Shown here: one piece after another, positions 11,270 to 26,280 of the stretch | Numbering within the stretch: position 1 is the first letter of the stretch | Layout of the letters: each line of letters begins with the position of its first letter | Made by a program: the position numbers and the translations under genes | Notes under the pieces: model-generated | Seen by the model: only the letters and a program-made list of their open reading frames with translations | Database searches by the model: none | What the model was told of the DNA's origin: nothing | DNA from: Cryobacterium levicorallinum | Lineage (GTDB): Bacteria; Actinomycetota; Actinomycetes; Actinomycetales; Microbacteriaceae | Direction of reading: 5' to 3' | Assembly (NCBI RefSeq): GCF_004402405.1 | Contig: NZ_SOFE01000001.1 | Coordinates: 25,370-89,369, forward strand | Length of the DNA stretch: 64,000 bases

Positions 11270-11932
11270 GTGACTGATACCCGCGTCTACCCCTCATTTG
11301 CCCGTACCGTTCCTCGCTTTGCGCGGCGTCGGGCAGGCCTGGTGCTCGCCGGTGGCGCTCTGTTCGCGCTCGTTCTGAGCGGCTGCGCCAGTGGTGACGA
11401 GCCGACGCCGACGAATTCTGCGGCGACGAGCACGGCATCCGCTGAACCGACAGAGAGTGCAGCGCCCTCGTCATCGCCGACGCCGACGCCGGAAGCGACC
11501 GGTTCTCCGATTGAGCGAGCCTGCGATGAGCTGCTCACCCTGCAGGATCTCTACGATTTCAACCCGAATTACGGCACCGCGCCGAGCTTCGCCCCAGCCG
11601 CCGGTGGCCTGGCCGAGTCTGCGCTTGACTACAACGGACTCGCCTGCGGCTACTCGAACCAGACTAGTGGCGAGCTCATCGAGCTCTCGCTGGTGGCGCC
11701 GAACGACGTCTTGATGACCACACTCAAGCAGCAAGCGGATGCCGACAGCCAGGCCGTGCCCACCTACGGAACCCCGCCGACCGTCGACGGCTTCTTTGAA
11801 TACGCCGCCGCCGGCAGCGGCCAGGCACAGGTCTTCACGGGAACCTACTGGGTCACCTTGAGCTCGCCAGCCTTCATCGAGCCGGGCGACTCCGAGCGCC
11901 TCATGTCGGCGGTGCTCGGTCACCTCGGGTAG
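11270..11932 (+). CDS. Putative secreted lipoprotein
   Basis: 220-aa protein with a signal peptide whose lipobox is LVLSGCAS (Cys near residue 43), then a Ser/Thr/Ala/Pro-rich linker (residues ~45-75) and a globular domain beginning with [21 protein letters not shown]. The architecture is that of a membrane-anchored lipoprotein of unknown function, common in Microbacteriaceae. Cysteines in the mature domain (ACDE, LACGY) could form a disulfide. The GTG start gives a normal signal peptide and matches the TAGGGT leaderless box. The gene stands alone, divergent from argS and just before the tRNA. Confidence 0.8.
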
Positions 11933-11954
11933 CTGCTAACCTTGAACCACCCTG

Positions 11955-12026
11955 GCCCCCATAGCTCAGGGGATAGAGCACTGCCCTCCGGAGGCAGGGG
12001 CGGCAGTTCGAATCTGCCTGGGGGCA
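11955..12026 (+). tRNA. tRNA-Arg (anticodon CCG)
   Basis: A 72-nt cloverleaf: acceptor GCCCCCA/TGGGGGC, D-stem GCTC/GAGC, anticodon stem CTGCC/GGCAG with loop CTCCGGA (CCG), T-arm GGCAG-TTCGAAT-CTGCC, discriminator A, no encoded CCA. The 3' part (11990-12023) is duplicated at 26186-26219, so this gene is the insertion target and left end of the genomic island. Confidence 0.95.
11990..12023 (+). other. Attachment-site copy in tRNA-Arg (left)
   Basis: 34 bases from the anticodon loop through the T-arm into the acceptor stem are identical to 26186-26219. Integration here keeps the tRNA intact, the usual pattern for tyrosine-integrase elements. Confidence 0.75.
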
Positions 12027-12247
12027 CATCTGTCACGTGACAGTCCAGTTCGGACTATTGCCACCTACTTCGGACAATCCGGCTATCAAGTTCGTTGAAA
12101 GTCATGTCGTTGTCATGAGTAGACGTGACCCGAACGCGGTCCTCAGCCTGTCGCAGTTGACGTGCCTTGGCGGGATTTCCTTACGCGACAGGTCAAACGG
12201 GACAAGTTTGCTCAGACGGTGCGCGGGGCCCTGTCTTTGCGGGGGCG

Positions 12248-12270
12248 TTCCCGTATGAGGTCCCCCTTTG
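12248..12270 (+). repeat. Island repeat copy A
   Basis: TTCCCGTATGAGGTCCCC form, a diverged copy of the island repeat (core KTCCCGYAKRRGGTTCC). It lies between the tRNA and the first GNAT gene. Confidence 0.55.
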
Positions 12271-12384
12271 CGGACATGCTAGTCAGGAGTTGCATCCGGT
12301 TCGATCCGTGGGATGTTCAACTCGCGGTGCCGACGGCCGAAGACCTGGAGCTCGTCGAGTTAGCAAGCTGTTGCTATCCTCGGT

Positions 12385-12492
12385 GTGGGGAGCGGAAAGC
12401 ACCAGGACCTGTCTTATCTCAGTTTCACAGCGCTGATTCTCGGAGGTTTTGTGGTCGGAATCGGTGTCGCGGGGACCGGGATCATCTGTTGA
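12385..12492 (+). CDS. Possible short hydrophobic peptide (35 aa)
   Basis: A GTG-initiated frame reads MGSGKHQDLSYLSF followed by a run of about 20 hydrophobic/Gly residues ending in GTGIIC, which looks like one transmembrane helix. There is no strong Shine-Dalgarno and no family was recognised. It is the only coding-like stretch in the 590 bp between the tRNA and the first GNAT gene, and may be the tail of a decayed membrane-protein gene. Confidence 0.25.
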   Translation: MGSGKHQDLSYLSFTALILGGFVVGIGVAGTGIIC

Positions 12493-12618
12493 CACGGCGC
12501 GATGTTCGATTCTGCTGGCGGCTTGAACGAATCCGTATGCACTGGCCTGTCTAACTAGTCCGTTAGCATGCTGGGCGAATCCAGCGGGACCCATCAACGA
12601 GACGGAGATAGTTAACTT

Positions 12619-13128
12619 ATGCACGCTCCCGCGAATCTTCCAGTTGCCGTGCGGGTCGCTGTCGCTGGCGATCGAGGCGAGATCCTCCGGTTGGTCGCGC
12701 AAGTGTATTCGGACATGCACACGGTTTACGGCGGAGCCGCACCCGCTACGGACGCGGAATGGGAAGCGCGGGTCGCGGCTTCTCTCGATCGGCGCCTCGG
12801 CAACGATGTCGCGATTTTTGTCGTAGAGGGTGCAGTTGGGCACCTGGCGTCCCTGGCGGTCGGACGGATCAGTGAAACCCTGCCGAGCCCGAGGCACGTG
12901 CACGTCCTGGAGGGGTACGTCGAGTGGGTGGGGACCGACTCCCAGTATCGAGGCAGGGGGTATGCGTCCGCTGCGATGAGTGAACTCCTGCGGTGGTTCC
13001 AAGCCAATGACGCGATGTCGGTCTCCCTCAACGCGAGCCCAGACGCGGAATCAATCTACCTCCGCATGGGCTTCAACGACGACGGACCACGGGCTCTCAG
13101 CATTCGCCTCGGAGAGCACGCATCATAG
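12619..13128 (+). CDS. GNAT family N-acetyltransferase
   Basis: 169-aa single-domain GNAT protein, which transfers acetyl from acetyl-CoA to an amine; the substrate is unknown. The acetyl-CoA-binding motif A is visible as QYRGRGYASAAMSELL (residues ~114-129), followed by the motif B-like SIYLRMGF. The ATG is preceded by GGAGAT. It is flanked by island repeats A (12248) and B (13233), forming a one-gene unit. One of four GNATs in the island. Confidence 0.85.
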   Translation: MHAPANLPVAVRVAVAGDRGEILRLVAQVYSDMHTVYGGAAPATDAEWEARVAASLDRRLGNDVAIFVVEGAVGHLASLAVGRISETLPSPRHVHVLEGYVEWVGTDSQYRGRGYASAAMSELLRWFQANDAMSVSLNASPDAESIYLRMGFNDDGPRALSIRLGEHAS

Positions 13129-13232
13129 TCAACAAGGGGCGCAGCCCAACTTCGCGCACCGGTCGACTTCCCGTTGATAGCCTGTCGCCTATACGCCGTA
13201 CCCGAGGCCCTGGAACACAGGGCGGCGAACTC

Positions 13233-13255
13233 TTCCCGTATGACGTTCCGCTGTG
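13233..13255 (+). repeat. Island repeat copy B
   Basis: TTCCCGTATGACGTTCCGC followed by TGTG, 104 bp after the first GNAT gene and 46 bp before the second. Shares TTCCCGTATGA with copy A. Confidence 0.6.
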
Positions 13256-13300
13256 GCACCCGGCTGCGGCGGTCTGGCTCGGCACAGGTAGCCTCTCCCT

Positions 13301-13747
13301 ATGGAAGATGAGTTGACCATTTCGATCGCCACCCACGCCGACGACGCTGTCGCCGAAGAGATTCGCCGATTGCTTCCGCAGCTGTCACAGACAGCTATGT
13401 TCGACAGGGAGATTCTCAATCGGATGCTGGAGAACGAGTCAGTCGATCTCTTCCTGGCGCGGCTCGCTGGCCGGGTTGTCGGAATGGCCACCCTCGTAAC
13501 GTTTCCCATTCCGACTGGGGTCCGGGGTCACATCGATGACGTTGTGGTGGACGAACTCACCCGTGGCCGAGGGATCGCTCGTGAATTATTGACCGCGATG
13601 ATTGCCAGAGCGCAGGCGTTGGGAGTGCGGAGCCTGGACCTGACGTCGCGCCCATCCAGAGAATCCGCAATCCGGCTTTACGAGGCCTCCGGATTCGTGC
13701 GCCGTGATTCCGTTTTGTTTCGATACCAGCCCATCGATTCTCGATGA
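13301..13747 (+). CDS. GNAT family N-acetyltransferase
   Basis: 148-aa GNAT with acetyl-CoA motif ELTRGRGIARELLTAMIARA (residues ~86-105) and a C-terminal SAIRLYEASGFVRRDS. It differs clearly from the 12.6-kb GNAT, so it is not a recent duplicate. TAGCCT lies 6 nt before the ATG and no Shine-Dalgarno is present, suggesting a leaderless transcript. It lies between repeats B and C as a unit of its own. Substrate unknown. Confidence 0.85.
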   Translation: MEDELTISIATHADDAVAEEIRRLLPQLSQTAMFDREILNRMLENESVDLFLARLAGRVVGMATLVTFPIPTGVRGHIDDVVVDELTRGRGIARELLTAMIARAQALGVRSLDLTSRPSRESAIRLYEASGFVRRDSVLFRYQPIDSR

Positions 13748-13805
13748 GAGATTCCCTTCCGGGTGCACGGAAAACAAAGCCCTGAGACTGCACATTCGCG
13801 GAACC

Positions 13806-13828
13806 GTCCCGTAGGGGGTTCCCCTGTG
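13806..13828 (+). repeat. Island repeat copy C
   Basis: GTCCCGTAGGGGGTTCCCC followed by TGTG, 58 bp after the second GNAT stop. One of the copies closest to consensus. Confidence 0.75.
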
Positions 13829-13908
13829 GAACTGGATCAAGGCCGGTCTTGGACCATGCACGGGGCGGATGTGCCTACGGCCGAGCGGTGTGTGGGACCA
13901 TGCAGTCA

Positions 13909-14307
13909 TGAGGATAGCCAGGGCAGCTCGAGTCTTAACCGTTGTTCCGATTGCCTTGACCATGAGCGGGTGTCAGGCGGTGCTGGAGCCTCGGTCGACT
14001 ATGGGGGTCGATGATGTGGTGGCTGTTTTCACGGCGCAGGCTGACCTTCCCATGACGGATCCACGCGACATTACCGCCGACGCCTGTGCCACAAACGACG
14101 CCTGCATAGCGGCGGTACGGTCAGAAGAAATTTCGATTTAGCGTTTTGCGTCGCCGAACGACGCGGAGAAATTCGCGGAAACACTTGGCGATAACGGCCA
14201 TCAATCCGACTGGATTGTCTTGGAATATCCAGGCGCCAAATTCGATTCCGATCCCACTAAATCGTCGCATGCCGGCCTTATCGACTCCATGTGGACGAGC
14301 GACTGAC
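13909..14307 (+). pseudogene. Small lipoprotein gene interrupted by an in-frame TAG
   Basis: From the ATG at 13909 a signal peptide with lipobox LTMSGCQAV leads into a short domain (GVDDVVAVFTAQADLPMTD, then two Cys in DACATNDAC). A TAG at 14139-14141 stops it after 77 codons. The same frame then stays open for 54 more codons with protein-like content (RFASPNDAEKFAETLGDNG ... DSMWTSD) up to TGA at 14305. The natural product was probably about 132 aa. Either it is a nonsense mutant or the amber codon is read through. It lies between repeats C and D. Confidence 0.6.
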
Positions 14308-14341
14308 GACAACCAGCGAGTCAATCACCGGGACATAGCAG

Positions 14342-14364
14342 GTCCCGCAGGGGGTTCCCATGTG
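14342..14364 (+). repeat. Island repeat copy D (extended)
   Basis: GTCCCGCAGGGGGTTCCC followed by ATGTG, 35 bp after the lipoprotein. Similarity to copy G (19878) continues about 28 bp further downstream (GACACRGCATCGGC and on). Confidence 0.75.
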
Positions 14365-14477
14365 ACACAGCATCGGCGCCCTTGGCGATCGAGTGGAGAG
14401 GCCGCGAATTCGTCGCGTTGGAGGTCCGGCTTGCGGGCATCCGAAGGTGGTGGCCCGTGGCGCTCAGTTTGAGACGA

Positions 14478-15029
14478 TCAGTCTGCGGGATTTGCGCGTA
14501 ACCAGTCACGAACTTGGTCTGCATGACCTTCCGCCGGGAAAACGGGATAAAACACATGCCTGACGGTTTCTCCGTCAATAACAAGAGTCATGCGTTTGAG
14601 AAGCGTCACGCCTTCGACCGTGAAGGTGGGGAGTTTGAGCGCCGCTGTCAATCGTCCCTTCTCATCCGAGATGAGTGGGTACGGTAGGTGAAGCCGCTCG
14701 ACGGCCTCGTGTTGATAGGCCGAGCTCTGCACCGAAACCCCGATCACGTTTTGAGCGCCAGCCTCATTGAGTTCGACCAAGCTGTCACGAAAGCTGCATG
14801 CTTCGGCGGTGCAGCCTTTTGCTCCGGGGATGTCTGCCCATCCGATTGGCTCGGCCTGGCCAGGCACGCCCGTTCGTGGATAGATAAACAAGATCCAGCG
14901 CCCAGTTGAGCATTTTTTCATGCTCAACTCGCCGCCCGATGTCGATGCAAGGTCGATGTCAGGCAGGTGCAATCCGATCAAGTGATCAGCGGCACCGTCA
15001 TCGAGGGGCGTCGGAAGGGTTTTCGCCAT
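14478..15029 (-). CDS. Peroxiredoxin (AhpC/TSA, BCP-like)
   Basis: Thiol peroxidase fold that reduces hydrogen peroxide and organic peroxides. The 183-aa protein has a thioredoxin-like beginning (DIDLASTSGGELSM, RWILFIYPRTGVPG), the Cys motif GCTAEACSFRDSLVEL (residues ~71-86) like the GCTxEACxFRD of bacterioferritin-comigratory proteins, and a C-terminal LPTFTVEGVTLLKRMTLVIDG strand set. The region between the PRTG and GCT motifs is longer than in BCP, so it may be a separate redoxin subgroup. It is followed on the same strand by no close gene and preceded by a minus-strand GNAT 64 bp upstream. Confidence 0.8.
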   Translation of the reverse strand: MAKTLPTPLDDGAADHLIGLHLPDIDLASTSGGELSMKKCSTGRWILFIYPRTGVPGQAEPIGWADIPGAKGCTAEACSFRDSLVELNEAGAQNVIGVSVQSSAYQHEAVERLHLPYPLISDEKGRLTAALKLPTFTVEGVTLLKRMTLVIDGETVRHVFYPVFPAEGHADQVRDWLRANPAD

Positions 15030-15092
15030 GTGGCTTCATTTCGTGGTGTGGTCGAGGTCAGACTTGCGAAAGGTGGGATCAGCGGAAACTAT

Positions 15093-15503
15093 TCAGGTCA
15101 GTCGCTTTGATCGAACCTGAACATCAGCGTTTTCGTAGCCGAGGTGCTCATAGAAACCGAGTACTGCTTCGTTGGTCGAGCGGACCATGAGCTGAACTTT
15201 CACGGCGCCGTGTTTGCGCAGCCAGTCTTCCGCCGTTGACATCAGCTGCCGTCCTAAACCAGTTCCACGTTGGCTTTCATCAACAGCTAGGTAATACACC
15301 CAGCCGCGGTGTCCGTCGTGGCCAACCATAACGGTGCCGATCAATCGGTCATTGTCGAAAGCCCCCAACACGGTTGATGTCCCGCCGTCGAGTGCGCGCT
15401 GCAGGTCAAGCTCCGGCGGATTCCACTGGCGGGTCAACCCCGCTCTGACCCAGAGTGACGTCGCTGCACCGATGTTTGCCGAGGTTAGGTCGCGAATCTG
15501 CAT
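15093..15503 (-). CDS. GNAT family N-acetyltransferase (YpeA-like)
   Basis: 136-aa GNAT starting MQIRDLTSANIGAATSLW, with motif A DESQRGTGLGRQLMSTAEDW (residues ~75-94) and the terminal AVLGFYEHLGYENADV typical of the short YpeA/RimI-like subgroup. Substrate not predictable. It is upstream of, and collinear with, the peroxiredoxin, with 63 bp between them. It begins 33 bp from the weak repeat at 15536. Confidence 0.85.
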   Translation of the reverse strand: MQIRDLTSANIGAATSLWVRAGLTRQWNPPELDLQRALDGGTSTVLGAFDNDRLIGTVMVGHDGHRGWVYYLAVDESQRGTGLGRQLMSTAEDWLRKHGAVKVQLMVRSTNEAVLGFYEHLGYENADVQVRSKRLT

Positions 15504-15535
15504 AGTCCTAGTTTGCCGTCATCATTGCAGACCCA

Positions 15536-15558
15536 ATGCCGTGAGACGTTCGGTTTAC
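15536..15558 (+). repeat. Weak island repeat copy I
   Basis: ATGCCGTGAGACGTTCGG followed by TTTAC. It matches copy E at 18 of 26 positions including the GTTTACGGG end, and lies exactly where a unit boundary would be expected, between a minus-strand and a plus-strand gene. Confidence 0.4.
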
Positions 15559-15642
15559 GGGCTTACCGTGCAGCTCCAATCCACGTCGATCGGGCGCATC
15601 CCACAAGCTGGTAACCGTCAGCAGGCTGTTAGCCTCGGGGTC

Positions 15643-15996
15643 ATGATTGGTTCTGCGCAGTGGATTGAGCATCGACGTGGCGACGGCGAACTGCTCGGAT
15701 GGATGGCACCCGAGGGCGACGGTTTCGTGGTCATCGATCTGCTGGGTCGAACGCGCTCGGACGAGGTGGATTGGCTCACTGCGGAAGAAACCCTCGAGGA
15801 GATCGGTCTGGGCTTCCTCGCAGACCCATTCGAGCTTCGCCTCTCCGACGGACGCTGGCTACCGGTGCGTATCGCCGAGCTCTCACCCGAAAGCATTCGA
15901 GTTACGCGCGACGACTGGGGTGCCGCTGACATCGAGGAACGGGAATTCTCCCTACCATTCCCGATACCCGAAGTACTGCGTCCAAAACTGAACTAA
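15643..15996 (+). CDS. Hypothetical protein (117 aa)
   Basis: Acidic 117-aa protein, MIGSAQWIEHRRGDGELLGW..., with alternating hydrophobic/charged beta-like segments (GFVVIDLLGR, WLPVRIAELSPESIRV) and a Pro-rich end. No domain recognised. TAGCCT lies 7 nt before the ATG, so it may be leaderless. It precedes the 16.4-kb MFS gene in the same unit of the array. Confidence 0.6.
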   Translation: MIGSAQWIEHRRGDGELLGWMAPEGDGFVVIDLLGRTRSDEVDWLTAEETLEEIGLGFLADPFELRLSDGRWLPVRIAELSPESIRVTRDDWGAADIEEREFSLPFPIPEVLRPKLN

Positions 15997-16016
15997 AACG
16001 AAACCGAGACCGTGCA

Positions 16017-16265
16017 TCACCAACCCGTGGAGCGCACGGCTGACGATTTGCTTCCGGCATCGACGGTGCCATTTAGCGCTGCACAAATACCGTCACCTAT
16101 TGGCTCTTCTCCAACCAAGCCACCAACTGCCTGTCCCGGTGAGGGTTCCTCGAAGGCAACAACGTCTAGGACGAAACCACGCGCATGGAACTTGGCGGCG
16201 TGGGTCGCCTGGATGTCGACCGGGCGATTGGAGTTGCAGGGCATCTTCGTTCCGAGTCCGGTCAC
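16017..16265 (-). CDS. Possible hypothetical protein (82 aa)
   Basis: In the 373 bp between the 15643 gene and the MFS gene, the minus strand has the more protein-like frame: PVDIQATHAAKFHARGFVLD and AFEEPSPGQAVGGLVGEEPIG. It starts at GTG 16265 (or ATG 16244) without a clear Shine-Dalgarno. No family recognised; it may be a fragment. An overlapping plus-strand frame is Ser/Pro/Thr-rich and looks non-coding. Confidence 0.3.
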   Translation of the reverse strand: MTGLGTKMPCNSNRPVDIQATHAAKFHARGFVLDVVAFEEPSPGQAVGGLVGEEPIGDGICAALNGTVDAGSKSSAVRSTGW

Positions 16266-16369
16266 TGCAATAGGATCCAGTCAGGGCTTGGCGGTTATCC
16301 AGGCATTGGGGGCGATGTGGGGCGGGCACGGCGCGTATGGATCCGCAGAGTCGTTAAGCGGTCGGGTCT

Positions 16370-17773
16370 TTGGGCGTGATTTCTCCCGGTGGTACGAGCG
16401 GATCACCTTCGATTAGCGTGACCCGAGCTGGGCTCTTGGCCGCGGCTTTGCTGGGGTTGGAGCTTGTCGCGGGCATGCAGGCTTACCTGCTGAACACCGT
16501 GATGCCCGTCATTGGTTCGGACCTCGACGCGAAGGACTTCTATGGTGTGATCGTGGGCTCGGCGCAGATCGCCATGTTCCTAACGATGCCCTTGGGCCCG
16601 TACTTGCTCCAGCGTTTTCGGGTGGATCGGCTGCTCGTTCATCTGAGTTGGCTCACGGTCGCCGGCAGCGTGTCGAGTGCCGTAGCTCCGAACGTCGGTG
16701 TCTTCGTTGCCGGTCGGGTCGCCTCTGGCCTGGGCGCTGGAGCTTTGGCGACCGTGTCCTTGGCGGCAATCGTGTCAGTTCTACCTGCCGGGTGGCGCCG
16801 CGCGGTTCTCGCCGGTTTCAGCGTGACCTGGGTATTCGCCTCACTCGCCGGCCCTCTGTACGCCGCGTGGGTGACCTCTGTTGCGAGTTGGCGCTGGGCG
16901 CTCGTGCTCTACCTCCCGCTCCTCATCGCGGCGCGAATCGTGGCTGCTCGCCAGCTGAGGGGCACCATGCAACCGGGAACCGATAAGGAGCCGTTGACGC
17001 TCGGCTCCGCCGGAATGCTCGCGGGCGGCGTTGCTTTACTCTCCCTCGTGGGCCTGCAGGCAGTGCCCTCCGCCGTAGCTGTCACCATGGGTGCCATCGG
17101 GGCCGTCGCCGTGATCTTTGCCGCACGCCGGCTTCTGCCCCCGGGAACCCTGAGCGCGCGAGCCGGCCGCCCTGCGGCACTGGCCACGATGGGGCTCCTG
17201 GCGGGTGTGTATTTCGGTGCCCAAGCGATCATGTCGATCATCGTTCAAGATCTGCTCGGGGGAACCACCGGACAAGCTGCGCTGGTACTCGCCGGCAGTG
17301 GCATGGGATGGGCGCTCGCGGGTTTGGCAGCAAGTCGATGGCCCCCACGGACGTCCCGAGCGTACGTCTGCCGCGCAGCGGTAGGGGGTTCCCTGATTGG
17401 CTTGGGGCTGTTGGGGACCGGAGCCGTCATTCTCACGGACGACGCTCTGCCGCGCATCACTGTGGTCCTTCTCGGGTGGACGCTCGCGGGCATTGGTATG
17501 GGGCTGGTCTATCTCGACACCCTCAACAAGATCGTAGATGTGCCACCGGAGGTGGATGGCGTCACTGTTCCGCGGGCGGCTGCGGCGACAATCTTGGTCG
17601 AAGCGATCGCAACAGCGGTTGCCGCCACGCTGGCGAGTGCTGTCGTGGGGCGGGCCGTTGCGGTCGGTCAGGACGCGAATCCAGCAGTAGTCATTCTCGC
17701 CGTCACCGGTGCGGGCGCCCTCTCATTGGTGTGGTTGGCCCGCCGCACGGCGATGGTTCATGTGGTGCGATGA
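16370..17773 (+). CDS. MFS transporter
   Basis: 467-aa integral membrane protein with about 12-14 hydrophobic helices. The first loop has the MFS drug-exporter pattern LNTVMPVIGSDL followed by GSAQIAMFLTMPLGPYL, and motif-A-like LLQRFRVDRLLV. Substrate unknown; drug/H+ antiport is the usual role of this type. The start is TTG 16370 or GTG 16376; both precede a short cytoplasmic N-terminus. GTAGGGGGTTCCC near 17379 inside the gene matches the island repeat core. Confidence 0.85.
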   Translation: MGVISPGGTSGSPSISVTRAGLLAAALLGLELVAGMQAYLLNTVMPVIGSDLDAKDFYGVIVGSAQIAMFLTMPLGPYLLQRFRVDRLLVHLSWLTVAGSVSSAVAPNVGVFVAGRVASGLGAGALATVSLAAIVSVLPAGWRRAVLAGFSVTWVFASLAGPLYAAWVTSVASWRWALVLYLPLLIAARIVAARQLRGTMQPGTDKEPLTLGSAGMLAGGVALLSLVGLQAVPSAVAVTMGAIGAVAVIFAARRLLPPGTLSARAGRPAALATMGLLAGVYFGAQAIMSIIVQDLLGGTTGQAALVLAGSGMGWALAGLAASRWPPRTSRAYVCRAAVGGSLIGLGLLGTGAVILTDDALPRITVVLLGWTLAGIGMGLVYLDTLNKIVDVPPEVDGVTVPRAAAATILVEAIATAVAATLASAVVGRAVAVGQDANPAVVILAVTGAGALSLVWLARRTAMVHVVR

Positions 17774-17845
17774 TCGCCTGCTCTGATTCACCTTGAATCG
17801 GCCACCAAGCCCAACCACCATCCCCACAGGACTCGAAGCTCGATC

Positions 17846-17868
17846 GTCCCGTAGAGGGTTCCGTTTAC
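17846..17868 (+). repeat. Island repeat copy E
   Basis: GTCCCGTAGAGGGTTCCG followed by TTTAC, 73 bp after the MFS stop. The last four bases overlap the stop of the small minus-strand frame at 17865. Confidence 0.7.
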
Positions 17869-17975
17869 GGGCGCCTATCTCGGGCCGTTGCCCTGCAGCG
17901 ACGCCATCCGGCAATAGCAACGGACATCGCCATCACGCCGAGGGTGACCAGTACGAAGGTGGGAGTTGGAGTCAT
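17865..17975 (-). CDS. Possible small membrane protein (36 aa)
   Basis: Minus-strand ATG at 17975 reads MTPTPTFVLVTLGVMAMSVA, then IAGWRRCRATARDRRP: one hydrophobic helix followed by a basic tail, a topology seen in many small membrane proteins. A weak AAAGAG lies upstream. It is 26 bp downstream of the GNAT at 18002 on the same strand. No homolog recognised. Confidence 0.4.
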   Translation of the reverse strand: MTPTPTFVLVTLGVMAMSVAIAGWRRCRATARDRRP

Positions 17976-18001
17976 GCGGCTCGCTATCTCTTTCGGAACG
18001 C

Positions 18002-18472
18002 TCAGGTGAGCTTCTTGAGCATCTTCACCGAAGTTGTTTCGTACCCAAGCGAGTTGTAAAGCCCCCGGGCGCCGGTGTTGAATCCGAAGACGCTCAGGCC
18101 GAGAGACTGCGCTCCGTGTGAGTGTGCGTATTCCTCGCCGAGGAGCATTGCCGCTCTCCCGAAACCCTGACCACGCTGGTCAACGTTGATGACAACGTCC
18201 CAGACCCACCACGCCCCTGGATCGGCGCTGACGTCCTGTCCGATCCACAGGTATCCCACTGCGGCACCCGCCTTGTTCATGACGTGAAAGACCTCATTGC
18301 CAGGGCTCGGAGCACCATCCGGGAACAAACGAGCCATGCTCTCGACGGCTCTGCGTTGAGCTTCCTCATGCGATCCACCCTGGGTAACCAAATCACTTAC
18401 GTATTCGGTGCAGCTGCGGTCCAACCACGCTGGGAACTCGCTGGTGAGGATTCGCTGAAGGGTCACAGTCAT
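18002..18472 (-). CDS. GNAT family N-acetyltransferase
   Basis: 156-aa GNAT with acetyl-CoA motif VDQRGQGFGRAAMLLGEEYA (residues ~101-120) and C-terminal LSVFGFNTGARGLYNSLGYE. The N-terminal half (FPAWLDRSCTEYVSDLVTQGGSHEEAQRRA) resembles the YafP/YncA-like GNATs that act on small amines or antibiotics; substrate unknown. It is divergent from the toxin-antitoxin pair at 18588. Confidence 0.85.
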   Translation of the reverse strand: MTVTLQRILTSEFPAWLDRSCTEYVSDLVTQGGSHEEAQRRAVESMARLFPDGAPSPGNEVFHVMNKAGAAVGYLWIGQDVSADPGAWWVWDVVINVDQRGQGFGRAAMLLGEEYAHSHGAQSLGLSVFGFNTGARGLYNSLGYETTSVKMLKKLT

Positions 18473-18550
18473 CCGTCAATTCTTCCAGACAAGTGTCGCC
18501 GGCCAACGATTCCTGGTCGCAGCAGATTCGGTTTATGCGACCCCATCTGA

Positions 18551-18568
18551 TGCTATATTTGTATAGCA
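18551..18568. promoter_or_regulatory. Inverted repeat before the toxin-antitoxin operon
   Basis: TGCTATA and TATAGCA, separated by TTTG, form a perfect 7-bp inverted repeat 20 bp before the antitoxin ATG. It contains the AT-rich -10-like stretch, so antitoxin binding here would repress the operon, as in RHH-antitoxin autoregulation. Confidence 0.6.
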
Positions 18569-18587
18569 CTCTGAGGAGGGATGCCAT

Positions 18588-18806
18588 ATGCCGCAAATCA
18601 ATCTCCGCGTTGACGATGAAACGGATCATCGCCTGCAATATCTGTCGGAGCGCACTGGGCGGTCGAAAACGTTTTATGCGACCGAAGCATTGACCCAGTA
18701 TCTGGACGAGAACGAAGACTATCTCTTGGCCAAGGATGCGCTCGAGGAATTCACTCAGTCCAACGACGACGCCATTGACCTCGCCGATGTGGTCTGGCCT
18801 GTGTGA
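18588..18806 (+). CDS. Ribbon-helix-helix antitoxin (RelB-type)
   Basis: 72-aa antitoxin. The N-terminal MPQINLRVDDETDHRLQYLS is a typical RHH beta-strand plus helix for operator binding and dimerisation; the acidic C-terminal half (DENEDYLLAKDALEEF) would wrap the toxin. GGAGGG lies 8 nt before the ATG. The toxin start overlaps its stop by four bases (GTGA). Pairing with a RelE-like toxin makes it a type II module. Confidence 0.85.
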   Translation: MPQINLRVDDETDHRLQYLSERTGRSKTFYATEALTQYLDENEDYLLAKDALEEFTQSNDDAIDLADVVWPV

Positions 18807-19069
18807 GCTACACGATCAGATTCACCCCGAAGGCAGCGAAGCAGGTCAGGAAACTCGACTCGGCCGCCGCGAAACGGATTCGTGATTTTCTTGAGCAGAG
18901 GCTTTCCGTACTAGACAATCCGCGCCAGCTCGGTAAAAAGCTCGTTAACGAAGAATTCTGGCGTTACCGGGTCGGCGACTACCGAATCCTCACAAATATT
19001 GACGACGATCAAATCCTCATCCTCATTGTCGAGGTTGCACATCGTCGCGAGGTCTACAACAGGCTCTAA
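18803..19069 (+). CDS. RelE/ParE-family toxin
   Basis: 88-aa toxin of the RelE/ParE superfamily: MSYTIRFTPKAAKQVRKLD, IRDFLEQRL, and the C-terminal WRYRVGDYRILTNIDDD...VEVAHRREVYNRL. The conserved R-x-x-x-G-D-Y-R-I and terminal H-R-x-x-V-Y are those of RelE ribosome-dependent mRNA interferases. Starts at GTG 18803, overlapping the antitoxin. This module may help keep the island, since loss would free the stable toxin. Confidence 0.88.
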   Translation: MSYTIRFTPKAAKQVRKLDSAAAKRIRDFLEQRLSVLDNPRQLGKKLVNEEFWRYRVGDYRILTNIDDDQILILIVEVAHRREVYNRL

Positions 19070-19127
19070 ACACAGCAGCGGCGCCGCTCGACGCGCCAAG
19101 TTCGATATTGCCAGCGAAACGAGACGT

Positions 19128-19150
19128 GTCCCGCAGAGGGTTCCTCTTTC
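19128..19150 (+). repeat. Island repeat copy F
   Basis: GTCCCGCAGAGGGTTCC followed by TCTTTC, 58 bp after the toxin stop. The 270 bp between toxin and next lipoprotein otherwise holds nothing recognised. Confidence 0.75.
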
Positions 19151-19342
19151 GCGCACCGGGTCCGGCCCCCGGCGGCGTTGACCTTCTCGCGCGTGGGCAT
19201 GATTCGCAACATCCTGATTGTCGCTCGAGGCGTGGACGTGCCGTTCACTAGCGAGATTTCATCGGCCCGGCTGAGGTGTCGGCAGCGGCGTTCGGCTCTG
19301 TTAGTTTTAGAAAAACTGCAGGACCGACGTTTAGGGGAACGG

Positions 19343-19771
19343 ATGAATAGACGAAGACTTGCTTTGGCCGTGGGAGTGTTCGTGCTCCTGGCTCCGGTGT
19401 TGAGTGCCTGCACGGGGCCACCGGAACCTGGACCTAGGTCACCGTCAGCAACAAGTTCTTCGGTGGACTCTTCGACATCGTCTACGCCCGTTCCCCAGTC
19501 AATCAAGCCGCCCGCCGCAACGGGCACGACACTCGGAACGTGGGTGAGCCTACCCAACACGGCACGTGGCGGTCCTATCGATTCTCTCGGCGAAGGCCTA
19601 TGGGTCGCCCTCAACTGCGCGGGGAGCGGAACGGTGACGGTCGACATCGGCGACGTTACGTCGTCCACATTTCAGTGCACCTCAGACGACACGATGGCCT
19701 ATGCCAATCACTTCAACCAGGCGCACGGACAAGCAACCGTCTCCGTGTCCGCAACGGGAGATGTTATATGA
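19343..19771 (+). CDS. Putative lipoprotein, possibly cut short by a TGA
   Basis: 142-aa lipoprotein: signal peptide MNRRRLALAVGVFVLLAPVL with lipobox LSACTG, a Ser/Thr/Pro linker to about residue 58, then a beta-rich domain with two Cys (ALNCAGSG, FQCTSDD). It ends ATGDVI-TGA. The same frame then continues RLTISSTPVTNSTQG to a TGA at 19817; if the first TGA were TGG (Trp), the reading would extend a beta-strand naturally. So this may be a C-terminally truncated allele. It lies between repeats F and G; function unknown. Confidence 0.7.
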   Translation: MNRRRLALAVGVFVLLAPVLSACTGPPEPGPRSPSATSSSVDSSTSSTPVPQSIKPPAATGTTLGTWVSLPNTARGGPIDSLGEGLWVALNCAGSGTVTVDIGDVTSSTFQCTSDDTMAYANHFNQAHGQATVSVSATGDVI

Positions 19772-19877
19772 AGACTAACGATCTCCAGCACGCCGGTCAC
19801 CAACTCGACACAAGGCTGAGACCGATGCCCAGCGGCCGCGACTCGCCGCCGGTGCAGCACAGGTGTGTCGTCGATTT

Positions 19878-19901
19878 GTCCCCGGATGAGGTTCCCAAGT
19901 G
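19878..19901 (+). repeat. Island repeat copy G (extended)
   Basis: GTCCCCGGATGAGGTTCCC followed by AAGTG, 1 nt longer than consensus. Downstream about 28 bp are similar to the flank of copy D. It too follows a small lipoprotein gene. Confidence 0.65.
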
Positions 19902-20139
19902 ACACGGCATCGGCTCGCTCGGCCATCGGTCAGTTTGGACCAAGATCTGTCGCGCCGGCCGTCCCCTTGTGAGCCGGCCGGCTGACCTCGGAACCGAGAC
20001 CACAGGAACCACGATTTGCGTCGCGCATCAACTTTTCCACGACTGCCTTGATCGAAGACCAAGACGGGGGTAAGGAGTTCGCCCAACAGAATCTTTTCCC
20101 CGAAAAAGCGTTGGCAGGTCTTAATACTGCAATGCTTTT

Positions 20140-20946
20140 CTATCCTCCGAGGAGAACCCCGTGCACGAAGATGATCGCCGGGAATGTCGCGGTGAACGCC
20201 CAAAAGAAAATGTCGAGGCCAATTAGTACGGCGGTTCCGAGATGGAGCATGGCCCCGGCGAAAAGAAACGCGACCAGTACGCCAGGCGGAGCCACAAGGG
20301 CTACGGGAAAAATGATTTCCACGCCGATAACTGACCATCCGACGAAGCCTCCAAGCCAGGGTCGCCTACGAATTACGGCTGCGGCCGTGGAATGTCCATA
20401 TGTAGCCGTGTTGAGAATGCTCTGCATCGCTGATCCTTGACGCCATTGTGCGTTGGATATCTTCGATATCCCCGCAGCGAAATATGCCAACAAAGCCTGC
20501 GCCGCGATGAAATACAAACCCACGGCTTGAAAAGGACTCGACGTTGGAATCAGGAAGGTGAATGCCAAGCCCGCAAGGATGATGACCGATATTTGATTGG
20601 AGCCATCTTTGCCATAGCGAATTTGATAGGCCAGGAAAAGGCTTGACAGCAAAATGATCGTCACGTAAGCGGCGTAGAGCAGGTTGCTTTGAAACGGAGT
20701 GATGAGGGCTATGGAACAGACGATTCGAGCAATCACAACGACACGTAGCCACACTGAGCCGCTGTGCCCGACCATCCATCCACGTGACCCACCGTGTGAC
20801 CTAGCGAGGATCTGTTTACTATTCCAGTCAAACAGCCCGCTCAATCCGAATTCTTTCAAGCTGAAGAGTAATTGCAGAGAACCTTGAAGAATACCTATGC
20901 CCACGATGACGGCGGTAATTCGTGCGGCGCTCTCGATTGTCAACAT
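20140..20946 (-). CDS. HTTM-domain membrane protein (SdpB / gamma-carboxylase-like)
   Basis: 268-aa multi-pass membrane protein with 6-7 predicted helices. The pattern of Trp/Gly-rich helices (GGSRGWMVGHSGSVWLRVVV; AQALLAYFAAGISKISNAQWRQG; WSVIGVEIIFPVALV) is that of the HTTM family, which includes vitamin K-dependent gamma-carboxylase homologs and SdpB of the Bacillus killing-factor system. It lacks the long lumenal domain of true carboxylases, so carboxylase activity is not implied. The start is 3 nt after the stop of the 20950 gene, so the two are co-translated. Confidence 0.65.
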   Translation of the reverse strand: MLTIESAARITAVIVGIGILQGSLQLLFSLKEFGLSGLFDWNSKQILARSHGGSRGWMVGHSGSVWLRVVVIARIVCSIALITPFQSNLLYAAYVTIILLSSLFLAYQIRYGKDGSNQISVIILAGLAFTFLIPTSSPFQAVGLYFIAAQALLAYFAAGISKISNAQWRQGSAMQSILNTATYGHSTAAAVIRRRPWLGGFVGWSVIGVEIIFPVALVAPPGVLVAFLFAGAMLHLGTAVLIGLDIFFWAFTATFPAIIFVHGVLLGG

Positions 20947-20949
20947 GGC

Positions 20950-21483
20950 TTATGACACCGGGTGAGTCAGCGAATAGAAACGAACGAGTGGCACAGATGC
21001 TCCGCTTGGACCGCGTGTTTCAATCAAAGCGAATTGGTATAAGGCCTGCGACGACAATGAACCTCCGAGGCGTTTGCGCGCGACGTCAAGCAAGATTATG
21101 TATGGCGCGGTGAACTGAAGCCTGTCTGTAGAGCAGTTGATACTAGAAAGCGCCAGCAGCTGGAACAATTCAATCATGCCCTCTCGGTAGCGTTTTCGAG
21201 GGTTCCAAAGTGGATAGAGAATTCCTCTCGGGGATAAATTCAACTCCAACCATGGGCTGAAGCTCGTTTCCTTGTCGCGACTGCGATAGACAAAGTGATA
21301 GTTGCTCGCACCGGGATCTGGCGTGAAAAACGACCATTTTGGTACGAGTGTGAACCGGTCAAACCGTGTCGTTAGCCGGCTGAGCCGATTATTTTTCTGA
21401 AATGCGATCGTCAGTAAGAACCAGACAGAGAAAACAACCATTCCAGTAACGCCGAAGACGGAGCTTGCAATATCACTCATCAT
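20950..21483 (-). CDS. HTTM partner protein (DUF5819/SdpA-like)
   Basis: 177-aa protein with one N-terminal transmembrane helix (VFGVTGMVVFSVWFLLTIAF) followed by a domain with VPKWSFFTPDPGASNYHFVY and SPWLEL. A W-x-FF-x-P-x-P motif followed by a short strand set is typical of the small proteins encoded beside HTTM proteins (DUF5819- and SdpA-like). Role unknown; in the Bacillus Sdp system the equivalent pair is needed to mature a secreted toxin. GGGGAAG lies 8 nt before the start. Confidence 0.55.
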   Translation of the reverse strand: MMSDIASSVFGVTGMVVFSVWFLLTIAFQKNNRLSRLTTRFDRFTLVPKWSFFTPDPGASNYHFVYRSRDKETSFSPWLELNLSPRGILYPLWNPRKRYREGMIELFQLLALSSINCSTDRLQFTAPYIILLDVARKRLGGSLSSQALYQFALIETRGPSGASVPLVRFYSLTHPVS

Positions 21484-21622
21484 GTGGACTTCCCCAGATC
21501 GAATCGGTCGGCGAACAACTTGTAACGCAAGCCACTTGACGAGCGAACTCGTAGCGGAATCGTTTACCGATTTTGGTAGCAGGCAGCTGTTGGTGATTTG
21601 AGAACAGGAAGCAGAGTCCGGT

Positions 21623-21850
21623 TCACTTCGATCGGGCGGCCCTCGCGCGCGCCTGGAAGGCTCGAAGAACCTCCAACGTCTGTGCCGGTCGGTGCTCTAC
21701 AGGTACTTCTGCAAGCTCGTCGCTCATACCCTCGGTGTCGCACCGTATAGCCGAACCCCCGTCCGTGACGATCCAGTCGTCCTGGGGGTCGACAGGGGTG
21801 ACGAGGCTGTCGAGGGTCGAGAGTTCTAGATCCGTGAGGCTGATGGCCAT
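21623..21850 (-). CDS. Short acidic protein upstream of the HTTM pair (75 aa)
   Basis: 75-aa frame, MAISLTDLELSTLDSLVTPV followed by DPQDDWIVTDGGSAIRCDTE and a basic C-terminus rich in Ala/Arg. It is acidic for about 55 residues, then basic. It sits 139 bp upstream of the HTTM pair on the same strand with an AT-rich promoter-like TAAATATTC before it. No homolog recognised. A secreted-peptide precursor or a regulator are both possible; there is no signal peptide. Confidence 0.5.
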   Translation of the reverse strand: MAISLTDLELSTLDSLVTPVDPQDDWIVTDGGSAIRCDTEGMSDELAEVPVEHRPAQTLEVLRAFQARARAARSK

Positions 21851-22192
21851 GTGCGTTCCGTCTTTCGGTCTCGGAGAATATTTACAGACGCGCTCTCACT
21901 ATGAATCCAGAATAACTTGCGGTCGCTCATAATCTAGCGGGCCGGTCCACAGAAACGAAAGCTGTGAAGGTTCAACAGCCTGATATTTATTCTCAAAATT
22001 GTCTTTCGTCAACAATGAAAAAAGAGCATGACAGACATCTCAGTTCGTTAAAGGAAGGCCTTGCATCGCAGTGTTCTGGGGTCGCGGAGCATCAACCCGC
22101 CATCCGCGCTGAGTGCGATTACCTCCCGACGGCAGGAACTCTCTCGCATGCCGTTCAAGGTTGCTGTTTGACAGGGTCACAGTCGGGTAGCG
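21851..22192. other. Intergenic region (342 bp), promoter and possible decayed repeat
   Basis: No credible gene. It is relatively AT-rich near 21875-22030. At about 22122-22150 CTCCCGACGGCAGGAAC followed by TCTCTCGCAT resembles island repeat F at about 15 of 26 positions, where a unit boundary would be expected. Confidence 0.35.
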
Positions 22193-23434
22193 CTAATCGT
22201 TGCGCGCGGTTATTAGCGCCGTGTCAGAGTCAGAACTTGCTTGCAGTTCAGATCGAAACAGCCACCAAACGATTACGCCACAGCAGATGAAAAGGGTGCC
22301 GCTCGCCAGGAACGGCACGGACAAGGACAGCGACGAAGCGAGGACCCCGCCGAGGGCTGCTCCCACAGTGAGACCGATAAGACCAAGGACCTTTGACGAT
22401 GCGTTGACCCGCCCTCGGAGGTGCTCGGGGACAACGCGCTGCCGAAGCGAGCTCACGCAGATACCCCACACGACGGAGTGCACGATGTACGCGGTTAGGA
22501 GAGCCGCGGCTACCCATGGAATCCGGACGAACGCGAGCGCGAACATGGATGCGGCGCCGAGGCAGAGACTGCCCACGATCGTCCATCCGTATCCCGCACG
22601 TGAACGCAGTGGAGCAGTGATGATCGAACCGACAAGACCGCCGAGTGCTGACACCGCCAGAATCAGGCCGTACCCGGCGGAGCCAAGTCCTAGAGTCTGC
22701 TGAGCAAATAACACCAGAACGGAAAACGGCATCATGTATGCGACACTCGCGAGCCCGCCAACTACAGCCAGGCCGCGCAATAAACGGTGGCCCCGAAGCC
22801 ACCTGGCACCGTCCGCGGCTTCACGAAACACGGATCGGCGAGGCGAGGGAAGGGCGTTGACGACGCCCCGACGCGGGAGCGCGAGGAAGAAGAACCCGGC
22901 CGCTGCATAGAGGCCGCCAGCGGCCAGGACCGGAACCGCCACCCCGAGGGCGAACAGGAGGCCGCCCAGTGGTGGCCCAGCGAATTCATCGGCGAGGAGT
23001 TGAGCTGCCGAGATGCGGCTGTTCGCCTGGTCTAGTTTGTTCGCTGGAACGACCGACGGCAGGATCGACAGGGCTGCGTTGTCCGCGGCGGTCTCCAGGA
23101 TTCCGACGCCCGCAAGGACGACATACAGGAGCGGAACGGATCCGAAACCGATTGCGAACAAGACCGCCATCATGATCAACAGCGACGCTCGGCTGAGATT
23201 CGTGATCCACAGGATCGTTCGACGGTCGTAGCGATCGACGTAGACCCCGACCGGAACCACCACAAGCAACCGCATCGCCGAGTATATGGCGGCAAGGCCG
23301 GCGATGAGAATGGCATCCGTCGTCAATGATGTTGCCAGCAGCGGTATCGCCACAAAAATCAAGCCGTCGCTCAGGTTACCGGCCGCATTGCCCGCCCAAA
23401 GCTGCCTGAACCCTCTACCTAACGACACGAACAA
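22193..23434 (-). CDS. MFS transporter (macrolide-efflux-like)
   Basis: 413-aa, about 12 helices. The start MFVSLGRGFRQLWAGNAAGNLSDGL and the loop VDRYDRRTILWITNLSRA match the MefA/Bcr-like MFS_3 group often annotated as macrolide or enterobactin exporters. Substrate unproven. It is alone on the minus strand, between the weak boundary near 22.12 kb and repeat H at 23473. Confidence 0.87.
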   Translation of the reverse strand: MFVSLGRGFRQLWAGNAAGNLSDGLIFVAIPLLATSLTTDAILIAGLAAIYSAMRLLVVVPVGVYVDRYDRRTILWITNLSRASLLIMMAVLFAIGFGSVPLLYVVLAGVGILETAADNAALSILPSVVPANKLDQANSRISAAQLLADEFAGPPLGGLLFALGVAVPVLAAGGLYAAAGFFFLALPRRGVVNALPSPRRSVFREAADGARWLRGHRLLRGLAVVGGLASVAYMMPFSVLVLFAQQTLGLGSAGYGLILAVSALGGLVGSIITAPLRSRAGYGWTIVGSLCLGAASMFALAFVRIPWVAAALLTAYIVHSVVWGICVSSLRQRVVPEHLRGRVNASSKVLGLIGLTVGAALGGVLASSLSLSVPFLASGTLFICCGVIVWWLFRSELQASSDSDTALITARND

Positions 23435-23472
23435 ACCCTAGCCGCCCCGAGCCATCAAGCCGCCAAGAGACG

Positions 23473-23495
23473 TCCCGTACAAGGTTCCCCGTGAG
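23473..23495 (+). repeat. Island repeat copy H
   Basis: GTCCCGTACAAGGTTCCCC followed by GTGA, 38 bp from the start of the 22193-23434 MFS gene. Last copy in the island. Confidence 0.65.
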
Positions 23496-23558
23496 GGCTC
23501 TCTCGTGAGCGCTTTGCCGCAAGCCGCTGCGGCAGCTCTGGCACTCGCAGTGCGTCGG

Positions 23559-24068
23559 TCAGGCGGTGAGCAACGCGAGCGGGATGACCGCCACGCCATC
23601 CTGTCGGCGATAGGCGTGGGTGCCAGTGTTGATGACAACGAGGTCGACAATTTGGTCGGGAAGTGACTCCTTCAGCCACAGCAGGTGGCGAACGTCCTGG
23701 TCGGTGATGGCGGACTTGAGCTTGACTTCAATACCGACAGCTTCTGCGTCTTCTCGGTGGATGACGAAGTCAATCTCGTGTCGCCCATCATGGTCGCGGA
23801 AAGGCGACAGCTGCGCGTCGTTCGCCGCCGCATAGGTCTGGAGGCTGAGGGCCACGAGTGCTTCGAAGAAGTCGCCGAGGCGAGTCCGGTCGCGGTTGTT
23901 CGTCGCGGGCCCGGTGGCTGACATCAGTTTGACCGCGTTGAGGCCCAGGAGGCGCGGCAGGAAGTAGAGGGCGGTGCCACTGACCCCCGAAGCTGAACAT
24001 TGGGCTATACCACAGCAGCCCGCGAAGCGCAGTCCCCTCATGAGCCGACGTGTGATCATCTGCGGCAA
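23559..24068 (-). pseudogene. C-terminal remnant of a DUF4143 ATPase
   Basis: Only the DUF4143 part of a DUF4143-containing AAA+ ATPase remains: LLGLNAVKLMSATGPATNNR, then LGDFFEALVALSLQTY and a PD-(D/E)xK-like core HEIDFVIHREDAEAVGIEVK. The Walker A ATPase half that normally precedes it is missing; the first 35 residues of the frame look random. Function of such proteins is poorly known. It is interpreted as a truncated remnant. Confidence 0.7.
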
Positions 24069-24166
24069 GTCGTACCTTTCAATTGCACCTGTGTTGAACG
24101 CTCAATATGGGCAAAGTCATTGGTGACTACTTGGCAATCCACTACCCACAAGGAAAAGGATTTTTC

Positions 24167-25564: not shown

Positions 25565-25579
25565 CTTAGAAGACGGTCA

Positions 25580-25617
25580 GCGGGTGTGGTCGGGGCGAGA
25601 GCCCGGACCACACCCGC
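25580..25617 (+). terminator. Terminator after the subtilase gene
   Basis: A perfect 12-bp stem, GCGGGTGTGGTC with GACCACACCCGC, extended by GGG/CCC, followed by TTCTCGTT. 16 bp after the stop codon. Confidence 0.75.
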
Positions 25618-25711
25618 TTCTCGTTGCCGAGCGCCGTCTCCAAGACTGACTGACAGTTCACGACGCCACGCTCAACAACGGGCTCGTCATACACCACGTC
25701 CGTGGACTCAA

Positions 25712-25870: not shown

Positions 25871-26185
25871 GTGATCATCGTGTTCGGAATGCATTCGGAA
25901 GTACAGACACTACCGGCGCTGCGCATCAGTCATGATCGCTCTGGACCAGCCGCAGTCATCCAGCGACAGTAACTACTGATAAGACATGGATACCCATGAC
26001 GAAGTCATGAGCGGAATCTCTGATCGAGGTCCGACCATCTTCACTTGCGGCACGTGCCCACTTCTTGCCCACAATCGTGGCGTTATCATTGCTCAATCAT
26101 GATCGCTATTGTGAGCGAAAACGACTCTTGATCGACTATTTACCGTCGGGAGGAAGACTGGAAAAGGTCCGCGGTTCGCCCTCCA
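25871..26185. other. Right-end intergenic region of the island (315 bp)
   Basis: No gene seen. Contains several short TGATCA/TCATGA-rich palindromes (25855-26130) just inside the right attachment copy; such arrays can be integrase arm sites, but nothing firm can be said. Confidence 0.3.
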
Positions 26186-26219
26186 GGAGGCAGGGGCGGC
26201 AGTTCGAATCTGCCTGGGG
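26186..26219 (+). other. Attachment-site copy (right), partial tRNA-Arg duplicate
   Basis: 34 bp identical to the 3' part of tRNA-Arg(CCG). Similarity continues left to GCCCTCC with one inserted A, and right to CACA with one G missing, so it cannot form a tRNA. Confidence 0.75.
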
Positions 26220-26280
26220 CACACTCTGAAAGCCCCGGTCACGCCAGTTGCAGCAATTGTTCGTTGCGTTCAGGCTGCAA

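Follow-up and report, generated by a model that had tools for sequence, protein, structure and literature searches.

The 64,000-nucleotide stretch of Cryobacterium levicorallinum analysed here (contig NZ_SOFE01000001.1 of RefSeq assembly GCF_004402405.1, positions 25,370 to 89,369; hereafter the window) contains, between a tRNA-Arg gene and a ~50-bp copy of its 3' end, an island of small gene units separated by a short directional repeat. We consider it highly probable that this repeat marks the joints of a gene-cassette array whose units are exchanged, likely by a small serine recombinase of the resolvase/DNA-invertase family. Arrays of this kind, in which single genes are traded as cassettes, have been described with tyrosine recombinases, namely in integrons and pdif modules. 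Searches of the open-access PMC literature yielded no description of a serine-recombinase cassette array and no report combining Cryobacterium and serine recombinase. If our interpretation is true, the serine counterpart would mean that this mode of gene storage and swapping arose more than once, and it would explain much of the accessory gene content beside such sites in Cryobacterium. It would also offer a directional, two-base-coded family of sites for DNA assembly and make testable how a resolvase, normally held to one DNA molecule by accessory sites, joins separate molecules. Below, G### denotes a genome compared, C## a contig and L### a locus, G000 being the C. levicorallinum genome itself (3.75 Mb, 36 contigs).

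The repeat and its distribution

A previous inspection of the window without database searches (the sequence-only reading) had described eight copies of a 23-bp repeat in one orientation. All eight were recovered within 1 bp (12248, 13233, 13806, 14342, 17846, 19128, 19879 and 23472), all on the + strand and, as claimed, between the open reading frames (ORFs) taken as genes. With up to 3 mismatches, the repeat has 12 matches in the window against a mean of 2.86 in shuffled sequence, and none of 100 shuffles reached 12. The repeat is thus real, but 23 bp is not its full extent: complete copies elsewhere in the genome are near-palindromes of 26-28 bp of the form KTCCCGYARRGGG-TT-CCNCTTRCGGGM (for example, GTCCCGTAGAGGGTTCCCTTTACGGGA on contig C10), in which two arms of ~12 bp flank a non-palindromic 2-bp centre, TT or sometimes TC.

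A 36-position matrix trained on 112 copies, themselves pattern matches, was combined with the ends of homology blocks from a comparison of window positions 11500-24200 (q coordinates) with 57 Cryobacterium genomes, in which up to 5 candidates were scored per genome. The island holds 14 sites by these means, all in the same direction (Table 1), of which those centred at 15549, 18527 and 22161 are so degenerate that the matrix misses them at 9 bits and were accepted from homology ends. The count of eight clear copies holds, but four further sites (14412, 16133, 18514 and 19949) had been overlooked. The weak ninth copy proposed at 15536 proved genuine, since its centre (q 4051 = window 15550) is the end point of a homologous block in G012, and a block in G011 starts at q 4048. 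The doubtful tenth exists too, but at 22148-22175 and not at 22122; among the matches listed, 8 of the 9 blocks of the adjoining HTTM unit end within 23 bp of its centre.

The motif is also enriched and clustered beyond the window, whereas the sequence-only reading had named copies equally common elsewhere as an outcome incompatible with its view. The C. levicorallinum genome has 18 motif matches against 1 for the control, and across the 57 Cryobacterium genomes the 16-base core, with at most one mismatch, yielded 417 matches against 20 for a reversed-pattern control, at least one of them in 48 genomes. In 64 loci (931 kb), picked because they hold sites, recombinases or the tRNA-Arg locus, we counted 253 sites of at least 14 bits, compared with 7 in shuffled sequence. 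Neighbouring sites up to 4 kb apart agree in direction in 167 of 182 pairs, bearing out the observation that repeats point one way while genes point either way, and the median spacing of same-way neighbours is 1247 bp.

In a scan of 199 Microbacteriaceae genomes, a clear excess of the TT pattern was confined to Cryobacterium (four genomes sampled, 2-15 matches) and G141 (8 matches); the remaining genomes have 0-5 matches, mostly near control, and a search with an AT-centred pattern revealed no array-like excess in the 199. Large arrays therefore appear to be chiefly a trait of Cryobacterium. A few sites, with TT/TC, CC/TC or AT centres, are carried by single loci in Frigoribacterium, Okibacterium, Subtercola and Curtobacterium. 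The centre bases vary by genus, with CC/TC in Subtercola, AT in Curtobacterium and in a Microbacterium metagenome-assembled genome, and AT/AC at Arthrobacter upstream sites (L209, L211-L214, L246, L249); a palindromic AT centre would lose direction. A search of a plasmid collection found no close DNA match to 12261-23485.

An attC-like single-strand hairpin was an early idea, derived from a longer form of the site that pairs GTGACACAGC with CTGTGTCGC. It was set aside as the less probable reading: the two halves are two sites exactly 70 bp apart, and complete single sites are near-palindromes. When single sites with flanks were folded, without a control set, some paired, as near-palindromes, and many did not. 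Non-coding mini-units of 70-71 bp between two sites occur in the window at 14355-14425 and 19892-19962 and in L011 at 13850/13920/13991; they have hairpin-like ends (GTGACACAGC...CTGTGTCGC) and varying middles.

Exchange of single units at the repeat

Several units of the island recur singly in other genomes. The MFS unit (16146-17859) is 98-99% identical in G006 and G011, where it has another left neighbour, and the GNAT unit at 13246-13819 is 93-96% identical in G006, G011, G019 and G047, in other contexts. In G026, the HTTM unit is directly joined to the unit that follows 23485, the intervening MFS unit being missing. Block ends were quantified from the 69 rows listed at 80% identity or more, after removal of the self-match and of rows whose two ends are both below q 700. 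Among the matches listed at 88% identity or more, 38 of 55 block ends are no more than 16 bp from a site centre; 13 centres were considered, two of which (15549 and 22161) had been accepted partly because blocks end there; with rotated sites the mean is 1.90 and the maximum 16, and none of 5000 rotations reached 38. The eight clear sites alone, at the same identity, account for 19 of the 55 ends (null mean 1.18, maximum 10, none of 5000 reaching 19).

Breakpoints can be placed within the site itself. We compared 391 distinct site contexts. In 94 pairs the right flank is common and the left differs (34 distinct right flanks); in 54 the reverse holds (31 distinct left flanks). In these 148 junction pairs, identity is near 1 on the common side and at background level past the site arm, and the switch falls at -2 to +3 of the TT, inside GG-TT-CC; the crossover is not placed more finely than ~4-5 bp because GG-TT-CC is conserved anyway. 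The central two bases are equal in 144 of the 148 pairs, TC, the second commonest centre overall, being paired with TC three times and with TT once. These equal centres hint at a matching rule, a suggestive pattern to be read with the fact that the context filter favours TT. Boundaries in sister species thus coincide with the repeat at 38 of 55 ends and in 148 junction pairs, rather than never, as incompatibility with the cassette interpretation had been framed beforehand. On these comparisons, a precise, non-random exchange of units at the repeat is well supported.

The start of the array is conserved as well. In sister genomes the tRNA is kept, as are the 235 bp after it, and divergence sets in at the centre of the first site. 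Of this leader, the final ~105 bp are found again before sites at 12 distinct places in seven genomes (13 rows, two of which are the same place), three of them in C. levicorallinum (C33, C25 and C32), and the homology always stops at the site. By eye, the leader contains half-site-like pairs of the form GTCSCG...TTACGSGAC, and half-sites above 4 bits number 0.69 per leader against 0.22 in shuffles, a weak signal. The leader may be a full res site acting like attI. Arrays and breakpoints are also found away from tRNA genes, ARAGORN finding no tRNA in most of 33 loci.

Candidate recombinase, relation to res sites and rival readings

The loci examined encode 38 distinct small serine recombinases, 13 of which form one clade (at least 221 bits to the G037 enzyme) present at 14 places. 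At 12 of these 14 places a site lies within 900 bp of the gene; of the two exceptions, one is at the edge of its locus and the other (G011:C13) has no site. None of the 25 other distinct small serine recombinases has a site at 9.5 bits. At four places (G037:C34, G011:C14, G006:C15 and L183) the clade gene is bounded by sites 690-692 bp apart. The clade is present in 25 of the 57 Cryobacterium genomes (E ≤ 1e-60), and core matches are higher in these than in the 32 without it (Mann-Whitney p 2.9e-7, kinship ignored).

The clade protein, of ~194 amino acids (aa), matches the Pfam families Resolvase (PF00239, 141 bits) and HTH_7 (PF02796, 30 bits), and its nearest solved structures are those of a DNA invertase and of gamma-delta resolvase. 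Eleven proteins, one of them from outside the clade, were aligned, and all have the motifs Y-A-R-V-S-T, with its serine, and K-L-D-R-L-x-R-S unchanged. Protein relatives occur on 538 plasmid records, the best ones listed being 69-77% identical. The SCC (staphylococcal cassette chromosome) Ccr models (CcrA/B/C) matched the N-domain only, at 30-43 bits against cut-offs of 700-900. Gene association, together with the upstream sites in relatives described below, makes this serine recombinase the best candidate for the enzyme.

Relatives of the clade enzyme were collected at 80 loci, 55 of them outside Cryobacterium, and 54 with enough upstream DNA were scored. We took the best site-like sequence in the 150 bp preceding each gene and ranked it against random windows from the same locus: it outscores at least 99% of them in 20 of the 54 and at least 95% in 31; in 34 of these 54 relatives outside Cryobacterium the upstream sequence stays below the 99% level. 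Among the 20, its position is mostly -121 to -145 or -50 to -56. By group, Arthrobacter, Pseudonocardia and Solirubrobacterales mostly have the upstream site at -121 to -145, a second Cryobacterium subclade at about -131 and a compact subclade at about -50 to -56. In a FastTree phylogeny the compact clade comprises 38 proteins (support 0.86), and together with the second Cryobacterium subclade 46 (0.996). Judged by eye, relatives have space for subsites II and III, with sequence there that looks conserved; the compact Cryobacterium clade has only ~55 bp between the site and the start codon. According to PMC12217951, the res site of a Tn3-type system lies ~120 bp upstream of the gene; its box I, the one farthest from the start codon, is 28 bp long, has 12-bp arms and is cleaved at the 2 bp in the middle. 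The sites of the array resemble a box I of this kind. Because the upstream site of the relatives occupies the position of res site I, it is likely that the cassette sites derive from res site I and have shed the accessory subsites.

We propose the following mechanism. Recombinase dimers would bind to the arms, cleave at the centre and swap halves. The asymmetric centre would give each site its direction, so that sites could point one way while genes point either way. Each unit would run from centre to centre and, when excised, form a circle carrying a single site, able to re-enter at any matching site on any molecule. The ~105-bp leader may supply accessory recombinase-binding sequence, making the array start comparable to attI of integrons. 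The recombinase gene rides in the arrays, at four places as a unit itself. A resolvase system has likely been turned into a cassette-array system. With less assurance, we think it more probable than not that this is an independent second invention of the integron, in which res site I became the cassette site, a res-derived leader the attI-like platform, and the recombinase a cassette that spreads the machine with its cargo.

Several observations weigh against this interpretation. When only the eight clear sites are considered and identity is lowered to 80%, 21 of 133 block ends among the matches listed fall at a site and 47 of 5000 rotations reach that number; at this cut many matches span a gene only. 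C. levicorallinum has one full-length clade member (C35) and one altered (C32), neither of them in this island. G028 (18 matches) and G053 (19) are rich in sites without a clade recombinase at E ≤ 1e-60, and may contain relics, lack contigs or rely on another enzyme. The two ends of some recombinase units differ, TT at one and TC at the other, and a strict 2-bp homology rule would not excise such units; the clade gene itself may be cargo moved by another enzyme. One tyrosine recombinase gene, at L274, lies ~150 bp from a 13.6-bit site, and a breakpoint resolution of ~4-5 bp leaves room for a 6-bp overlap of the tyrosine type. The main weakness of the mechanism is the unusual accessory-free exchange between molecules. 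According to PMC12217951, Tn3 resolvase does not recombine two isolated copies of site I, and intermolecular exchange is disfavoured; the clade enzyme would therefore have to behave otherwise.

That a tyrosine recombinase, XerC/XerD-like or other, acts on the sites while the serine gene is frequent cargo appears unlikely to us, despite the precedent of the pdif modules, bounded by XerC/D sites and in some cases carrying a serine recombinase (PMC9455709). Tyrosine recombinases were found in all 12 genomes searched, site-free ones included, but only 2 of their 50 loci have a site of at least 11 bits, as against 12 of 14 serine-clade places, and for one of the two (L266) it is a weak site fragment 1.6 kb away. 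On this count tyrosine recombinases are disfavoured as the enzyme, together with the tandem trios of them seen at seven places (G006:C13, G006:C14, G011:C22, G011:C34, G012:C36, G019:C53 and G034:C43); in G012 the trio is 3.8 kb from sites on the same contig. We take these trios to be RIT (recombinase-in-trio)-like elements. The conserved GGTTCC could serve as a 6-bp overlap, and G028 and G053 have sites without the clade enzyme; the arm-2 bp-arm geometry, however, is that of resolvases and invertases, and cargo status would not predict a site in the res position of relatives outside Cryobacterium.

Still less probable is the view that the sites are old, immobile relics, with a tRNA-targeting integrase carrying the whole island and common units arising by ordinary recombination between islands. 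It would account for an island that lies between two copies of the tRNA-Arg 3' end, contains no clade recombinase and includes degenerate sites (15536, 18514 and 22148); yet units of 93-99% identity are found in unrelated contexts with breakpoints within the 26-bp site, whereas ordinary recombination requires a longer stretch of homology and would not break off at such a point, and arrays and breakpoints occur away from tRNA genes. None of the tyrosine-integrase matches in the C. levicorallinum genome falls within the window. A regulatory or terminator-like motif, finally, could equally be intergenic, near-palindromic and recurrent, but we give this reading hardly any credence: the direction of the repeat is independent of gene direction (167 of 182 pairs), homology breaks inside it, and an Rfam scan of the window returned no family except the tRNA. 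The reading we retain remains that of a cassette array likely served by the serine recombinase.

The seemingly altered clade gene of C. levicorallinum (G000:C32:305250-305711; L141 9230-10159) lies in a 310-aa frame in which the clade match ends at residue 155 of 194, and a 26-bit site is located just upstream of it.

Comparison with known systems and layout of the island

The sequence-only reading had likened the layout to integron cassettes without an integrase, noted the lack of attC cores and suggested a different cassette-shuffling recombination system. This reading is supported. In the 12 genomes searched, including G028 and G053, no protein reached the TIGR02249 cut-off for the integron integrase IntI (best 83 against 265 bits). 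The window has 66 GTTRRRY matches, fewer than the shuffled mean of 71.5, and not one overlaps any of the 14 sites. Neither the distribution of the repeat nor the unit boundaries in sister species refuted the reading. The near-palindrome, the likely enzyme, the leader, the island-bounding tRNA repeats and two composite units are features beyond that initial view.

Like integrons and clusters of attC sites lacking integrases (CALINs), the array consists of small gene units with one site per unit in one direction and a start region before the first site, and units are exchanged one by one at the site. Unlike them, it comes with no IntI above the cut-off in the 12 genomes and no GTTRRRY core in its sites, its recombinase is likely of the serine rather than the tyrosine type and is itself a mobile unit, and genes point either way. 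The array thus works like an integron without being a member of that group, the integrase and the attC core having been looked for and not found. With the Tn3-family resolvase/res systems it shares the enzyme family, a 28-bp crossover site with ~12-bp arms and a 2-bp centre, and the site upstream of the gene in relatives; it differs in having dozens of sites that bound ordinary genes, with no adjacent res gene or full res, and the ~55 bp of the compact enzymes are too short for subsites II and III. Module shuffling at res sites was reportedly described by Kholodii in 2001.

DNA invertases such as Gin and Hin act on 26-bp sites of the hix/gix type. They include the nearest solved structure and resemble the present system in site length and 2-bp centre, but here the sites are direct, not inverted, and units are exchanged, not inverted. 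The pdif modules of Acinetobacter, as described in PMC9455709, are likewise movable modules bounded by short recombination sites, toxin-antitoxin modules among them; they rely on XerC/XerD tyrosine enzymes and reside on plasmids, whereas the sites studied here are on chromosomal contigs as far as seen and showed no link to tyrosine recombinases in a test of gene proximity (2 of 50 loci).

Table 1. Coordinates of sites, units and flanking features of the island (window positions; identities are those of matches in the genomes named)
Feature	Position	Strand	Content and remarks
tRNA-Arg (CCG)	11955..12027	+	ARAGORN, Rfam, BLAST
tRNA-Arg 3' end, left island-bounding repeat	11983-12032		BLAST self-match to 26173-26228 via sister loci
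Leader before first site	12028..12260	+	last ~105 bp (about 12155-12260) recur before sites elsewhere; putatively attI-like
Site 1, array start	12248..12275	+	centre TC at 12261; leader homology stops here in G025, G023, G020, G003, G032
GNAT acetyltransferase unit	12262..13246		gene 12619-13128 +; Pfam
Site 2	13233..13260	+	centre TT at 13246
GNAT acetyltransferase unit	13247..13819		gene 13301-13747 +
Site 3	13806..13833	+	centre TT at 13819
Small-ORF(s) unit (lipoprotein in the sequence-only reading)	13820..14355		ORF 13869-14141 +; no Pfam match; also in G028 and G014, 92%
Site 4	14342..14369	+	centre TT at 14355
Site 5	14412..14439	+	centre TC at 14425; 70 bp past site 4
Redoxin + GNAT unit	14426..15549		Redoxin 14478-15029 -, GNAT 15093-15503 -; also in G012 (95%, beside a clade recombinase) and G053 (90%)
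Site 6 (weak)	15536..15563	+	centre TT at 15549; block ends q 4051, q 4048
Hypothetical-ORF unit	15550..16146		ORF 15647-15991 +; also in G011, 93%, q 4048-4650
Site 7	16133..16160	+	centre TT at 16146
MFS transporter unit	16147..17859		gene 16370-17773 +
Site 8	17846..17873	+	centre TT at 17859
GNAT acetyltransferase unit	17860..18527		gene 18002-18472 -; also in G021 and G011, 90%, homology stopping ~34 bp short of next site
Site 9 (degenerate)	18514..18541	+	centre TT at 18527; G015, G034 blocks begin q 7028
Toxin-antitoxin unit	18528..19141		TraY-like 18588-18806 +, ParE toxin family 18803-19069 +
Site 10	19128..19155	+	centre TT at 19141
Putative-lipoprotein unit	19142..19892		gene 19343-19771 +; LSAC lipobox read from sequence; no Pfam match
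Site 11	19879..19906	+	centre TT at 19892
Site 12	19949..19976	+	centre TC at 19962; 70 bp past site 11
HTTM unit (label of the sequence-only reading)	19963..22161		ORFs 20140-20946 -, 20950-21483 -; also in nine genomes, 84-89%
Site 13 (weak)	22148..22175	+	centre TT at 22161
MFS transporter unit	22162..23485		gene 22193-23434 -
Site 14, last one seen	23472..23499	+	centre TT at 23485
Right-hand copy of tRNA-Arg 3' end	26173..26228	+	right bound of island 12028-26228

The partition of the island by the repeat proposed earlier is largely retained, but two of the units then listed, hypothetical plus MFS and GNAT plus toxin-antitoxin, are each two units. The HTTM label found no support, the two ORFs of that unit that were tested matching no Pfam family at E ≤ 0.001. 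Among the matches listed, 6 of the 9 blocks of this unit begin within 16 bp of the centre of site 12, and to the right of site 13 five genomes have five different neighbours. Blocks of several genomes also begin or end at about 23948-23956 (q 12449-12466), without a recognisable site, and several sister genomes carry tandem copies of the tRNA end with other cargo.

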